Below are positions 25,758-33,787 of a DNA stretch of 64,000 nt, one piece after another. Numbering within the stretch: the stretch's first letter is position 1; every line of letters begins with the position of its first letter. Below the pieces are notes generated by a model. That model worked only from the letters and a program-made list of their open reading frames with translations, was not told the origin of the DNA and searched no databases. The stretch is from Flavobacteriaceae bacterium (GTDB lineage: Bacteria > Bacteroidota > Bacteroidia > Flavobacteriales > Flavobacteriaceae): positions 1 to 64,000 of the forward strand of contig JAOXRU010000576.1 of assembly GCA_025800395.1 (NCBI GenBank), read 5' to 3'. The position numbers were made by a program, and so were the translations under genes.

Positions 25758-26366
25758 ATGGCTTTTGAATTACCACAATTACCATATGCATATGATGCAT
25801 TAGAACCACATATTGATGCAAGAACAATGGAGATCCATCATTCCAAACATCATGGCGGCTATACAGCCAAATTGAATGCCGCTATAGCAGGAACCGATAT
25901 GGAAGGAAAATCGATAGAGGACATCATGGCAAATCTGGATATGAGCAATGGCGCAGTAAGAAACAATGGTGGGGGATTTTATAACCACCGTTTGTTTTGG
26001 AATGTAATGGCTCCAAACGGAGGAGGAGTTCCTACAGGGGATTTGGCTACTGCTATCGATGCTGCTTTTGGTTCTTTTGATGCGTTTAAAGATGCATTTT
26101 CCAAAGCTGCTGCTACGCAGTTTGGTTCTGGTTGGGCTTGGTTGTGCGTGCACAAAGGAGGAAAAGTAGAAGTATGTTCTACACCAAACCAAGACAACCC
26201 AATGATGCCTGGAGTTGCCTGCGAAGGAACCCCAATACTTGGACTAGATGTATGGGAGCACGCTTATTATTTGAATTACCAAAACCGTCGTCCAGATTAT
26301 ATCGAAGCATTTTTTAATGTGATTAACTGGGAGGCTGTGTCTGCTTTATACGCCGACAACAAATAA
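25758..26366 (+). CDS. sod: Superoxide dismutase (Fe/Mn)
   Basis: [40 protein letters not shown] ... [31 protein letters not shown]. Confidence 0.96.
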
Positions 26367-26475: not shown

Positions 26476-26540
26476 TTTTTCCTTTCTATTTCATTAAGGG
26501 CATTCCAAAATAGAAATGGGGTTACTCCTCGAATTAGGAC

Positions 26541-26614
26541 ACAAAAAAAGGCAATGTGTAAACATTGCCTTAGCCCCAAATCTTACCATAAACTTAACCT
26601 ACTTATGCTATGGT
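26541..26614 (-). ncRNA. Candidate small RNA, copy 1 of repeated family
   Basis: Core CCATAGCATAAGTAGGTTAAGTTTATGGTAAGATTTGGGG (minus) preceded by TATATTTG (-7, plus 26620-26627) and followed by GGCAATGT..ACATTGCC + T7. Confidence 0.6.
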
Positions 26615-26825
26615 AATACCAAATATAAGAGATGGGCTTAAGGGGGAAAAATAACTTGGATAAAGTAGAGGCTTTATAGGGCAAATGACCAAGTTGTAAT
26701 GCAGGGGCTACAAAGGCTGTGAGACGCTAAAGTTTGTGATGTAAAGGACTGATTTTAAGCGCAATGAAATTATTTTTGTTTCGCAATATTGTTGTTGCTA
26801 GCTAGTTGTCAGTTGGTTAAGAATC

Positions 26826-30296: not shown

Positions 30297-30548
30297 TTAT
30301 TTGGCACTCATGAGTTTCATACACATATACATGCGGTTCTCAAAAATTTTTCCTGCGACAAAGCCATCTGCCTTATCTCCCTTTTTGTTGAAATACGCTT
30401 CTACGATATTAAAAGCCAAATTTTCACAATAACGTTCTTTGGAAGTTTGTTCTTCTGCCAAAAAGAACGAAGAGCTGGTTAATAAAATGGTGATTCCGAT
30501 AACGAGGGGACTATTATGGAATTTCATAGCGCAATCAACTTTCTTCAA
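30297..30548 (-). CDS. Small secreted protein, tandem paralogue 1
   Basis: Signal peptide; CENLAFNIVEAYFNKKGDKADGFVAGKIFENRMYMC; start may be at MKFHNSP. Confidence 0.6.
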   Translation of the reverse strand: MKKVDCAMKFHNSPLVIGITILLTSSSFFLAEEQTSKERYCENLAFNIVEAYFNKKGDKADGFVAGKIFENRMYMCMKLMSAK

Positions 30549-30729
30549 GATTACAGGTGTAATAGGCTATTTCGAACATATGTCCCAATACAAAACCGTC
30601 GGTTTCACCAGTCATCACCTCATAGGTTTCGATAAATAAAAATGCTTGAGTTTCGCAGCGGTCATTGGCAAAACTCTGGCTACTGCAAAAGAATAGCAGC
30701 ATCGCCCCAAATTTTAGTACTTTTTTCAT
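30535..30729 (-). CDS. Small secreted protein, tandem paralogue 2
   Basis: Signal peptide; CETQAFLFIETYEVMTGETDGFVLGHMFEIAYYTC aligns to paralogue 1. Confidence 0.6.
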   Translation of the reverse strand: MKKVLKFGAMLLFFCSSQSFANDRCETQAFLFIETYEVMTGETDGFVLGHMFEIAYYTCNLEES

Positions 30730-30956
30730 GGATATAATTTTTTAAAGTTATTGTAGGAAAAATAACTTTTTTTTGTAAAATCAAAAGTGTTTTTAAACTT
30801 ATTTTTATAAAGTGTGTTTTGTGTAGTTAAAAAACTCAAAAACAATGTCTTGATGCGTTTATAAGGAAGAAAAATTAGGATAAAATCGGTATACAACTAT
30901 AAGTAAGTATGTCCGTTATGGGCTCTTTTTTTTGGGATTATAAAAAGTATAGAAAA

Positions 30957-31030
30957 AATAAAAAGGCGGAGATAAACTCCGCCTTTTTGCCCCAAATCTT
31001 ACCATGAACTTAACCTACTTATGTTATGGT
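30957..31030 (-). ncRNA. Candidate small RNA, copy 2 of repeated family
   Basis: Core at 30990-31029; TATGTTTG -7 (plus 31035-31042); GGCGGAG..CTCCGCC + T5 terminator. Confidence 0.62.
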
Positions 31031-31334
31031 GACACAAACATAAAAAGAAGTCTATAAATAGCACAAATAAAACAGATTAAGTGTCTGAATTACAGCTAAA
31101 CTGCACAATTGGTAGGATAAATACTATAAATTAGGACGAAAAAACGCTATTATAGAGGTTCTAATCAAGGGTGGTTAATGATAAAATTCCTTGTCTTTGA
31201 GGATTTTGGCTGCAATTTGGTTTCAGTTATCCTAAAAAGGAGCTAAAAGCAAGTGCAGTATGCTTGAACAAGAAGGAGGAATTGGTCAGCGTATTGGAGA
31301 AGGAATAAAGGCTGCATAAATGGTGTAGTGTCAA

Positions 31335-31408
31335 AATAAAAAGGCGGAGATAAACTCCGCCTTTTTGCCCCAAATCTTACCATGAACTTAACCTACTTAT
31401 GTTATGGT
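31335..31408 (-). ncRNA. Candidate small RNA, copy 3 of repeated family
   Basis: Core at 31368-31407 identical to copy 2; TATGTTTG -7 (plus 31413-31420); same terminator. Confidence 0.62.
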
Positions 31409-31655
31409 GATACAAACATATAGCGAAGTTTTTTTGTTGCCATATAAAGTAGTTGAATGGTCTATATATCGGCTCTAATTCAAACAAAATGACCATATCC
31501 GATAAATAGGTATTTCGGCGGAAAGAGTGGTCTAAAGAAAATGAAATGTAATAGCTCTCTAATTGGGTTGCAGGAGATAGTGGAACTATAAGAGAGAATA
31601 TGGATTAAAGATCCTTGTTGATTATTGTACAAATTTGTAGAATTGAGTATATGCA

Positions 31656-31730
31656 ATAAAAAAGGCGGAGATAAAACTCCGCCTTTTTGCCCCAAATCTT
31701 ACCATGAACTTAACCTACTTATGCTATGGC
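31656..31730 (-). ncRNA. Candidate small RNA, copy 4 of repeated family
   Basis: Core at 31690-31729; weaker -7 TACTTTAG (plus 31735-31742); GGCGGAG terminator. Confidence 0.6.
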
Positions 31731-31753
31731 ATTACTAAAGTAATTCGAACTAT

Positions 31754-31803
31754 CGACGAATGAACTATTTAACCGATGAATGGCATATATCTTCGATGAA
31801 ATG
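31754..31803. promoter_or_regulatory. Triple direct-repeat operator-like site
   Basis: CGACGAATG (31754), CGATGAATG (31774), CGATGAAATG (31794): exact 20-bp period, directly upstream of sRNA copy 4. Confidence 0.5.
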
Positions 31804-31835
31804 CACTTTTTTGTAGTTAAGTGGTTTAAAAATTG

Positions 31836-33740
31836 TCAGTAAGCCCTTTCATTTCGACCTTCATAATAGTTTATAAAGGCTCTATTTATAACTTTATTTC
31901 CTCCTGGAGTAGGGTAATTTCCTGTAAAATACCAGTCTCCTTTATGTTCTGGACATGCAATGTGTAAATTCTCTACCGTCTGATAAATGATCTTCACTTT
32001 GCTTTTCATTTTTTCTGGAGATAAGAGTTCTGCTATCTTTATAGATATAGTTTCTTGCTCAAAAGGGGCGTAGATTTCTTTTACAAAATTGACCACTTCT
32101 TCTTTGGGGAAATCTTCTTGTGATTTACACTTGTGGTAAACCTTGTCTATAAGTTCTTGTTGGTTGTTTTCTTTCAATAGAGCAATTGCAGCTCTAAAAG
32201 CAATAAAGTCTTCCAATTTGGCCATATCAATACCATAACAATCTGGATAACGAATTTGTGGTGCAGAAGAAACGACTATAATTTGTTTAGGGTGGAGACG
32301 ATCGAGCATGTGCAATATGCTTTTCTTCAGTGTAGTTCCTCTTACGATACTATCGTCTATAATAACTAGGTTGTCTTCCTTTCTAACTGCACCATAAGTG
32401 ATATCGTATACATGAGCTACCAAATCGTCTCTACTGCTGTCGTCGGCAATAAAGGTGCGCAGTTTGGCGTCTTTTATGGCTACTTTTTCAATGCGCGGTC
32501 GTATAGATAATATTTTGTGTAGAGAATCTGAATCCAGATCTTGTTTGCGTGAGAGCTCCAGTATTTGTTGTTCTTTTTTTCTGTTTAGAAAATTTTGGGC
32601 TTCCCGTATCATGCCCAAATAGGAAGTCTCCGCTGTGTTTGGAATATAGGAGAATACGGTGTTTTCTATATCTTCATTGATTAGTTTAGAAATTTGAGGA
32701 AATAGCAAGCCTCCAAGTTCTTTTCGTTCGTCGTAGATTTCTTTGTCACTTCCTCTAGAAAAATAAATGCGCTCAAAAGAACAGGATTTTCTTTCTAATG
32801 GATTTAAAATTTTTTTAAAGCTAACCTCGCCATTTTTCTTCACTATAATCGCTTTGCCAGGGTCTAATTCTTCCACCTTGTCATAGGCTACATTAAATAC
32901 CGTTTGTATTACAGGTCTTTCCGATGCTACAACTACTACTTCGTCATCTTGGTAATAATAGGCAGGTCTGATCCCGGCAGGATCTCTTAGAACAAAGGCG
33001 TCTCCATGTCCCAGCATTCCTACCATGGCATAACCACCGTCAAAGTTCTTGGTAGATTTTCTCAAAATCTTGGCTACATTAATACGTTCTGCAATAAGCG
33101 GGGAGGCGTCGTACTTAGAAACCCCTTCTTTTTTGATCTCTTTATAAAGCTTTGCAACGGCATCGTCCAAAAAGTGTCCAATTTTTTCCATTACCGTTAT
33201 GGTGTCTGCCTTTTCTTTTGGATGTTGCCCCAAGCGAATGAGATTGTCAAACAATTCGTTCACATTGGTCATATTAAAATTACCAGCAACGATCAGGTTG
33301 CGGTGCATCCAATTGTTTTGACGTATAAATGGGTGTACACTTTCTATGCTGTTTTTTCCAAAAGTTCCATAGCGAACATGACCCAACATCACCTCTCCAA
33401 GATACGGAATGTTCTTTTTGAGAACTTCGATATCGTTTAGTTTTTCTGGAAATTCCTGCAATCCTTTGCTTATACGTGTATTGATTTTTTCAAAAATATC
33501 TTGTATGGGTCTTGGGTCTGCAGATCGAACCCGACTAATATATCTTTGACCTGGATCCATATCTAGTTTGATAGAAGCATAGCCAGCACCATCCTGACCG
33601 CGATTGTGCTGTTTTTCCATCATCAGATACATTTTGTTTACCCCATAAAATGCAGTGCCATACTTTTCTTTATAGTATTCCAAAGGCTTCAACAATCGGA
33701 TAAAGGCAATCCCACATTCGTGTTTTATAGCGTCGCTCAT
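31836..33740 (-). CDS. Amidophosphoribosyltransferase-like class II glutamine amidotransferase/PRTase
   Basis: MSDAIKHECGIAFIRL N-terminal Cys, QHNRGQDGAGYA, PRTase motif LVIIDDSIVRGTTLKKSI; start moved to 33740. Confidence 0.85.
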   Translation of the reverse strand: MSDAIKHECGIAFIRLLKPLEYYKEKYGTAFYGVNKMYLMMEKQHNRGQDGAGYASIKLDMDPGQRYISRVRSADPRPIQDIFEKINTRISKGLQEFPEKLNDIEVLKKNIPYLGEVMLGHVRYGTFGKNSIESVHPFIRQNNWMHRNLIVAGNFNMTNVNELFDNLIRLGQHPKEKADTITVMEKIGHFLDDAVAKLYKEIKKEGVSKYDASPLIAERINVAKILRKSTKNFDGGYAMVGMLGHGDAFVLRDPAGIRPAYYYQDDEVVVVASERPVIQTVFNVAYDKVEELDPGKAIIVKKNGEVSFKKILNPLERKSCSFERIYFSRGSDKEIYDERKELGGLLFPQISKLINEDIENTVFSYIPNTAETSYLGMIREAQNFLNRKKEQQILELSRKQDLDSDSLHKILSIRPRIEKVAIKDAKLRTFIADDSSRDDLVAHVYDITYGAVRKEDNLVIIDDSIVRGTTLKKSILHMLDRLHPKQIIVVSSAPQIRYPDCYGIDMAKLEDFIAFRAAIALLKENNQQELIDKVYHKCKSQEDFPKEEVVNFVKEIYAPFEQETISIKIAELLSPEKMKSKVKIIYQTVENLHIACPEHKGDWYFTGNYPTPGGNKVINRAFINYYEGRNERAY

Positions 33741-33753
33741 TTTTTTTAGGATT

Positions 33754-33787
33754 AAAAAAAGCCCCAAAATTTAGGGCTCATTTTTTT
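33754..33787 (-). terminator. Possible intrinsic terminator/attenuator between pfkB-like and purF-like genes
   Basis: Minus strand AAAAAAATGAGCCCTAAATTTTGGGGCTTTTTTT. Confidence 0.5.

Follow-up and report, generated by a model that had tools for sequence, protein, structure and literature searches.

A putative multicopy small-RNA family of Flavobacteriaceae with complementarity to the leader of a small-peptide gene

Four putative sRNA genes in the purF-sodA interval

The window, by which we mean the whole 64,000-nt stretch of flavobacterial DNA analysed here, carries in order a purF-like gene, copies 1-3 of a putative small RNA (sRNA) gene, two small secreted-type ORFs, a GLPGLI/Porph_ging-type gene, a large outer-membrane-type gene, sRNA copy 4, sodA, a RecB-like gene and kbl; the names sodA, RecB-like and kbl were read off the sequences rather than obtained by family search. 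The purF-like amidophosphoribosyltransferase gene (31836-33767, minus strand), which has GATase domains, is the conserved upstream neighbour of the sRNA genes, and the sodA-like superoxide dismutase gene (25758-26366, plus strand) is their conserved convergent downstream neighbour.

In each sRNA copy a 42-nt core follows a promoter of the TAnnTTTG type and leads into a rho-independent terminator, and all four copies are encoded on the minus strand. When the window was scanned with a 27-nt core pattern allowing up to three mismatches, four matches were obtained, compared with none in 100 shuffled windows. A preliminary description of this DNA had reported three minus-strand copies with CCATA starts at 31729, 31407 and 31029, each preceded by a -7 box of the TAnnTTTG type. 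Starts and boxes were found exactly there, while the count had to be raised to four by the copy at 26540-26614; no fifth copy was present in the 4.17-Mb host genome assembly.

Copy 1 (31656-31730) has its predicted +1 at the G at 31730 and reads GCCATAGC, core, terminator (31659-31688, assigned from sequence and fold), with a predicted folding energy of -25.1 kcal/mol for the 5' hairpin and terminator together. Its -7 box TACTTTAG (31735-31742) stands at the same offset as in 236 of 291 family copies, and further upstream lies a direct-repeat operator (31752-31800) composed of TTCATCGAA (31800), TTCATCGGT (31780) and TTCGTCGAT (31760) with a 20-bp period and a pair score of 20.4. Copies 2 (31334-31408) and 3 (30956-31030), assigned from sequence and fold, have predicted +1 positions at the A at 31408 and the A at 31030; both carry the -7 box TATGTTTG (31413-31420 and 31035-31042, from sequence), and their terminators occupy 31338-31366 and 30960-30988 (sequence and fold). 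Copy 4, which adjoins sodA, contains the same core in a TTTATGG variant and scores 71.9 bits with covariance model R2 (see below); its -7 box is TATATTTG (26620-26627, from sequence), and its terminator (26548-26571, sequence and fold), AAGGCAATGTttacACATTGCCTT, is unrelated to the AAAGGCGGAG..CTCCGCCTTT terminators of copies 1-3, in contrast to the shared core.

A purF homologue is the first gene upstream of the sRNA cluster in 90 of 109 named loci, and a convergent sodA homologue is the first gene downstream in 82 of them. The window therefore retains the ancestral purF-sRNA-sodA place, now split by about 4.4 kb, with copy 4 as the sodA-side copy sharing its TTTATGG variant with sodA-side copies elsewhere. 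The two adjacent secreted-type ORFs (30297-30548 and 30535-30729, minus strand; 83 and 64 aa) form an insertion into this otherwise conserved interval; they lack a Pfam match and resemble paralogues (C..AF..IE.Y....DGFV.G..FE...Y.C).

Comparative anatomy of the RNA gene

The organization of the window copies recurs among 291 sRNA copies from 137 loci. The 3' end of 290 of the 291 copies is a hairpin of 10 or more base pairs followed by a T-run, built from 111 different 5' arms, and a TAnnTTTG box (at most one mismatch of six) is located exactly at -22 from AAGTAGG in 236 copies and at -23 or -24 in another 46. The core is near-invariant, including positions outside the search pattern, whereas the terminator sequence varies freely. 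This comparison strongly supports the original proposal that each copy is transcribed independently, and identifies the sRNA as a putative stand-alone, intergenic, non-coding transcription unit with a predicted product of about 72-75 nt.

For all four window copies, folding predicts a 5' hairpin that is joined to the terminator by a single-stranded linker. Across the family, the predicted 5' hairpin is ACCAU-ARC-A-UAA(GUAGG)UUA-A-GUU-Y-AUGGU, with the loop GUAGG exposed and followed after the stem by the exposed linker (A)GAUUUGGGGC. Nineteen of 21 variants of the 5' domain yield an identical or near-identical predicted hairpin; in the CCAGAAC/GTTC variants the bulge shifts from C to A and pairing is retained. 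Because the core, which exists in two types, GGTAAGATTTGGGG and GGTAGATTTGGGG, scarcely varies, there is almost no covariation in the 5' hairpin and none that is significant against shuffling.

Repeated, highly conserved and intergenic, the core could also be conceived as a DNA-level element or a tiny coding gene, and not as an RNA gene, and the preliminary description had indeed allowed for peptides starting MVRFGAK on the minus strand or MNLTYLCYG on the plus strand. However, about 40% of copies have a fixed 1-nt indel in the putative MVRFGAK frame (GGTAAGATTT versus GGTAGATTT), and in 81 of 292 copies the ATG that would start the plus-strand peptide reads ATA, so coding is excluded. The promoter at a fixed offset and terminators kept in shape only likewise speak for an RNA gene, and viral spread is not seen: a search of 2.9 million viral contigs gave 0 matches, on which a phage origin was also rejected. 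We regard the chance of a DNA-level element or tiny coding gene as negligible.

Distribution in Flavobacteriaceae

Flavobacteriaceae are dominant marine and soil polymer degraders, and to our knowledge their regulatory RNAs are nearly uncharted. Covariance model R2, which describes the 5' domain, was scanned over Bacteroidota as had been suggested; it detected the sRNA in 164 of 201 Flavobacteriaceae genera and in none of 266 genomes from the rest of the Bacteroidota. A DNA search returned 1-6 copies in most genomes of Flavobacteriaceae and no real match in 23 genomes from other families of the order. Named genera among the matches listed are Zobellia, Maribacter, Winogradskyella, Aquimarina, Cellulophaga, Salegentibacter and a few Flavobacterium. 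As far as these searches reach, the putative sRNA family is restricted to Flavobacteriaceae. One diverged copy (L173; genome G015, contig C72) has lost the first half of the core and retains TTTATGGTAGATTTGGGGC and the terminator; it had been a candidate antisense site, was recognized as in truth an sRNA copy, and was kept as one of the 25 rows of model R1.

A conserved small-peptide gene with core complements in its leader

The weak core matches that the core search gave in relatives correspond to the reverse complement of the core, often in tandem. Their main class consists of loci that follow a CoA-transferase subunit gene and encode a peptide of 26-42 aa with the C-terminus (T/A)KKxF(M/L)L and an amphipathic helix (loci L157, L159-L163, L170, L230, L236, L240 and L280-L342). 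A synonymous fraction of 0.595, compared with 0.19 expected, shows that the gene is coding. Since neither Pfam nor NCBIfam contains a model for it, the peptide appears to represent a new conserved small-protein family of Flavobacteriaceae. Example peptides such as MFKTIKNTFQLLKNVMYVAKKVFLLM are short, cationic and amphipathic, with a helical moment of 0.31-0.54 in most; longer forms have an acidic, polar N-terminal half.

With a profile (E<1e-3), the peptide was found in 86 of 201 genera, all 86 of them sRNA-positive (Fisher p 6e-11, genera counted as independent); by the first profile, whose detection is imperfect, 78 of the 164 sRNA-positive genera are without a detected peptide. The leader of the gene consists of one or more core complements ending at the start codon. 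At least two complementary sites are present in 24 of 29 peptide loci, against a single locus with one site in the shuffled control; typically one site has its end at the start codon or close to it (..CCCCAAATCTACCATAAACTTAAAACTTATG) and another lies within codons 4-12. In short forms of the gene, one site that stops at the ATG makes up the entire 5' UTR, and up to four tandem sites occur upstream of the start codon.

Predicted pairing between the sRNA and the peptide leader

In relatives there are RNAs in which both exposed parts of the sRNA have complements, either at the very start or further inside (GCCCCAAATCT(T)ACC..AACTTAACCTACTTATG); the proposed pairing involves the loop GUAGG and GAUUUGGGG. 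Predicted duplexes between the sRNA and the leader of its own genome were stronger than mononucleotide-shuffled controls in 17 of 17 cases (z < -2, median z -7.4), with energies of -25 to -52 kcal/mol; in Zobellia/Maribacter-like genomes the leader matches are weak (z -2 to -4). Moreover, the longer core type (GGTAAGATTT) goes with AAATCNNACC/ATC sites in 8 of 9 genomes, after one site that had been counted twice was dropped, and the shorter type (GGTAGATTT) with AAATCTACC-type sites in 14 of 15 (uncorrected table, Fisher p about 1.6e-4). No other observation points as strongly to pairing between sRNA and leader as this mirrored one-base change.

The core is more invariant than pairing alone requires, which would be expected if it chiefly bound a protein such as an RNA chaperone or translational regulator and the complementary RNAs were secondary; the FopS sRNAs of Bacteroides, which bind RbpB (PMC11697453), offer a precedent. 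Against this, the one-base difference in the sRNA has its mirror in the complementary sites, and full-length complements turn up in unrelated contexts; we consider a primarily protein-binding core very unlikely.

In our assessment it is quite probable that the copies are multicopy trans-acting antisense sRNAs that act on the mRNA leader of the small peptide, and that they are probably translational repressors of the peptide gene. Each copy would encode, under its own promoter, a small antisense RNA acting in trans; this RNA would pair with the peptide leader over the start codon, block ribosome loading and so repress the peptide; several tandem copies could provide dosage and separate inputs. 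Translation initiation in Flavobacteriaceae does not rely on classical Shine-Dalgarno signals.

An antisense RNA placed across the start codon of a short, cationic, amphipathic peptide is also reminiscent of a trans-encoded type I toxin-antitoxin system, in which the peptide (for instance MFKTIKNTFQLLKNVMYVAKKVFLLM) would be membrane-active and the multicopy RNA its antitoxin. In IstR/TisB and OhsC/ShoB, which are trans-encoded type I systems, an antisense RNA acts on the leader of a short membrane-active peptide. The predicted pairing in relatives is of this kind, and the peptide is confined to sRNA-positive genomes. In contrast to those single-copy enterobacterial systems, the flavobacterial one has 1-6 sRNA copies and an operator in common with its target. 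The peptide gene, moreover, occupies a fixed chromosomal place after the CoA-transferase subunit gene in many genera instead of spreading sporadically, and is under strong purifying selection; RNA and peptide are not always paired, given the sRNA-positive genera without a detected peptide, and the acidic, polar N-terminal half of the longer forms fits a membrane toxin poorly. A toxin-antitoxin-like function is thus the less likely account.

A common operator and candidate decoy RNAs

Most sRNA copies are preceded by two direct repeats of consensus TTYATC(G/C)AA (repeat sequence TTCATCGA) with a period of 20-21 bp, the first repeat lying at -79/-80. A pair score of at least 10 was reached in 217 of 286 sRNA upstream regions, the same regions on which the operator matrix was trained, and in 0 shuffled ones; the operator was also found at 27 of 29 peptide loci, none of which belonged to the training set. 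From the 20-21 bp period we presume it to be a LytTR-type site. The sodA-side copies of Zobellia/Maribacter-like genomes (L010-L015, L251-L254) are without the operator and have a conserved TTTCCCACAATACCAGTA upstream instead, which suggests that these paralogues may receive a separate input. The idea that the copies are redundant siblings is compatible with the data, but needs qualification in that paralogues differ in upstream control.

Further complements of the core are found in short RNAs outside the peptide gene. In locus L158 two units stand in tandem, and each combines three complements with a terminator; L167 has a single unit of this composition. At both L165 and L166, a lone complement is accompanied by a promoter-like box and a terminator. 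These RNAs look like candidate sRNA decoys, and their duplexes with the sRNA are predicted at -38 to -40 kcal/mol (z between about -6 and -8).

Such RNAs raise the question whether the complementary leaders themselves serve as sponges that mop up the sRNA, the true targets being other mRNAs with short matches. Tandem arrays of up to four sites before a start codon would suit a sponge, as would the non-coding three-site RNAs with terminators in L158 (twice) and L167, the one-site RNAs in L165/L166, and the operator common to the sRNA and the complement-bearing RNAs. However, conservation is highest in the site at or over the start codon, short-form 5' UTRs consist of one site ending at the ATG, and the peptide is under strong coding selection. 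Several genomes, in addition, have a single start-codon site only, which implies little titration capacity against 2-6 sRNA genes. Sponging as the main role of the leaders thus seems to us improbable.

With the leader as an antisense target, the common operator could give the circuit a threshold: a shared activator, perhaps a LytTR-like response regulator, would switch on sRNA and target mRNA together, the peptide would be made only if its mRNA exceeded the sRNAs in number, and the sRNA would be titrated by the short RNAs that combine one to three complements with a terminator. We put forward only tentatively, as a possibility open to considerable doubt, that tandem sRNAs, an amphipathic-peptide target, multi-site decoys and one direct-repeat regulator form a family-wide titration switch, with mobile elements carrying matching decoy sites. 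If true, this would be an RNA-peptide circuit new to Bacteroidota and conserved across most Flavobacteriaceae. At L164, L168, L169, L232, L233, L239 and L242, a core complement lies immediately ahead of a large conserved hairpin of the TTGCGC..GCGCAA type, in the neighbourhood of mobilization, integrase or ICE-like genes; such sites occur in several copies per genome, and their form agrees with the host sRNA type in most.

Relation to known regulatory RNAs

Membership in a known Rfam family, including Flavo-1, had been raised as a caveat and is not borne out: Rfam 15 gave 0 matches at the gathering score in the 64-kb window, and the Flavo-1 covariance model had none at gathering in the window and none at E<=10 in 30700-32000. 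Identity with FopS (RF04319) was rejected on a score of 18.8 bits over core and terminator, against a gathering score of 56, and a 59-nt stretch lacking the terminator had no FopS match at E<=10. FopS of Bacteroides thetaiotaomicron comprises about 14 scattered paralogues with a conserved 5' seed, their own sigma-ABfr promoters and generic terminators, which pair with translation initiation regions and repress SusC-type transporters (PMC11697453). The flavobacterial family resembles it as a set of Bacteroidota paralogues that share their 5' part, have promoters of their own, end in a generic terminator and are predicted to pair at a translation initiation region. Unlike FopS, its copies stand in tandem at one locus, and its conserved complement lies in a small-peptide leader.

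In Flavobacterium psychrophilum, the sRNA Rfp18 has at least three stem-loops, the third of which pairs with metalloprotease mRNAs (PMC9723704). The Rfp RNAs are likewise Flavobacteriaceae sRNAs conserved beyond the species; the present RNA, with only two predicted hairpins, one of them the terminator, is set apart by the description of Rfp18. A literature search by name, context and core sequence, in which the Rfp RNAs were compared by their description, returned no account of the sRNA. The family thus seems previously undescribed; that it could already be among the other F. psychrophilum Rfp RNAs is the main risk to its novelty.

The Qrr sRNAs of Vibrio are multicopy siblings under a two-component system that act on translation starts. 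The LhrC sRNAs of Listeria have the same features (PMC4132741). The flavobacterial RNAs share with both the sibling copies and the translation-start targets. They differ in that the target mRNA has the operator of the sRNA, its leader is largely made of sRNA complements, and decoy-like RNAs exist. We know of no sequence relation between either group and the flavobacterial sRNA. A 42-nt core that is nearly constant in more than 160 genera, together with a partner gene in the same genomes, provides a testable regulator-target pair; its operator should point to the controlling regulator, and the sRNA-peptide pair could open experimental access to RNA regulation in Flavobacteriaceae.

Complementary sites outside the peptide locus and in the host genome

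In relatives, the sRNA has conserved complementary sites in mRNAs from other loci, and the two co-vary; no such sites were found in the genome of the window. In the host assembly (667 contigs, 94.6% complete), the site model detected no significant complement beyond the four sRNA genes (best E 0.58), the peptide profile no peptide gene (best E 1.24), and, in a weak test, the short 70-aa ScoB query no match. Host targets proposed from a 14-mer search with one mismatch and from the site model were rejected as coding or chance matches only. An 18-nt exact match on contig C182 falls inside a coding gene. Partial matches in MFS-transporter, porin and PriA genes of relatives were set aside as apparent coding coincidences, and in 17 genomes of a Flavobacterium-like genus the site model returned only sRNA genes and weak matches, two of which were inspected and seem coding. 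At L172 (genome G017, contig C2, near position 1000), a core complement, CAAATCTTACCATAAAATTAA, stands directly before the metK start codon; alone it is not significant. In the host genome (G000), a partial complement (ATGAAATACCTAAATCTACCAGTACTTATG; E 0.58) at 4410-4435 of contig C129 (L191) covers codons 3-9 of a secreted-protein gene and is, as a lead only, the sole one to a target in the organism of the window.
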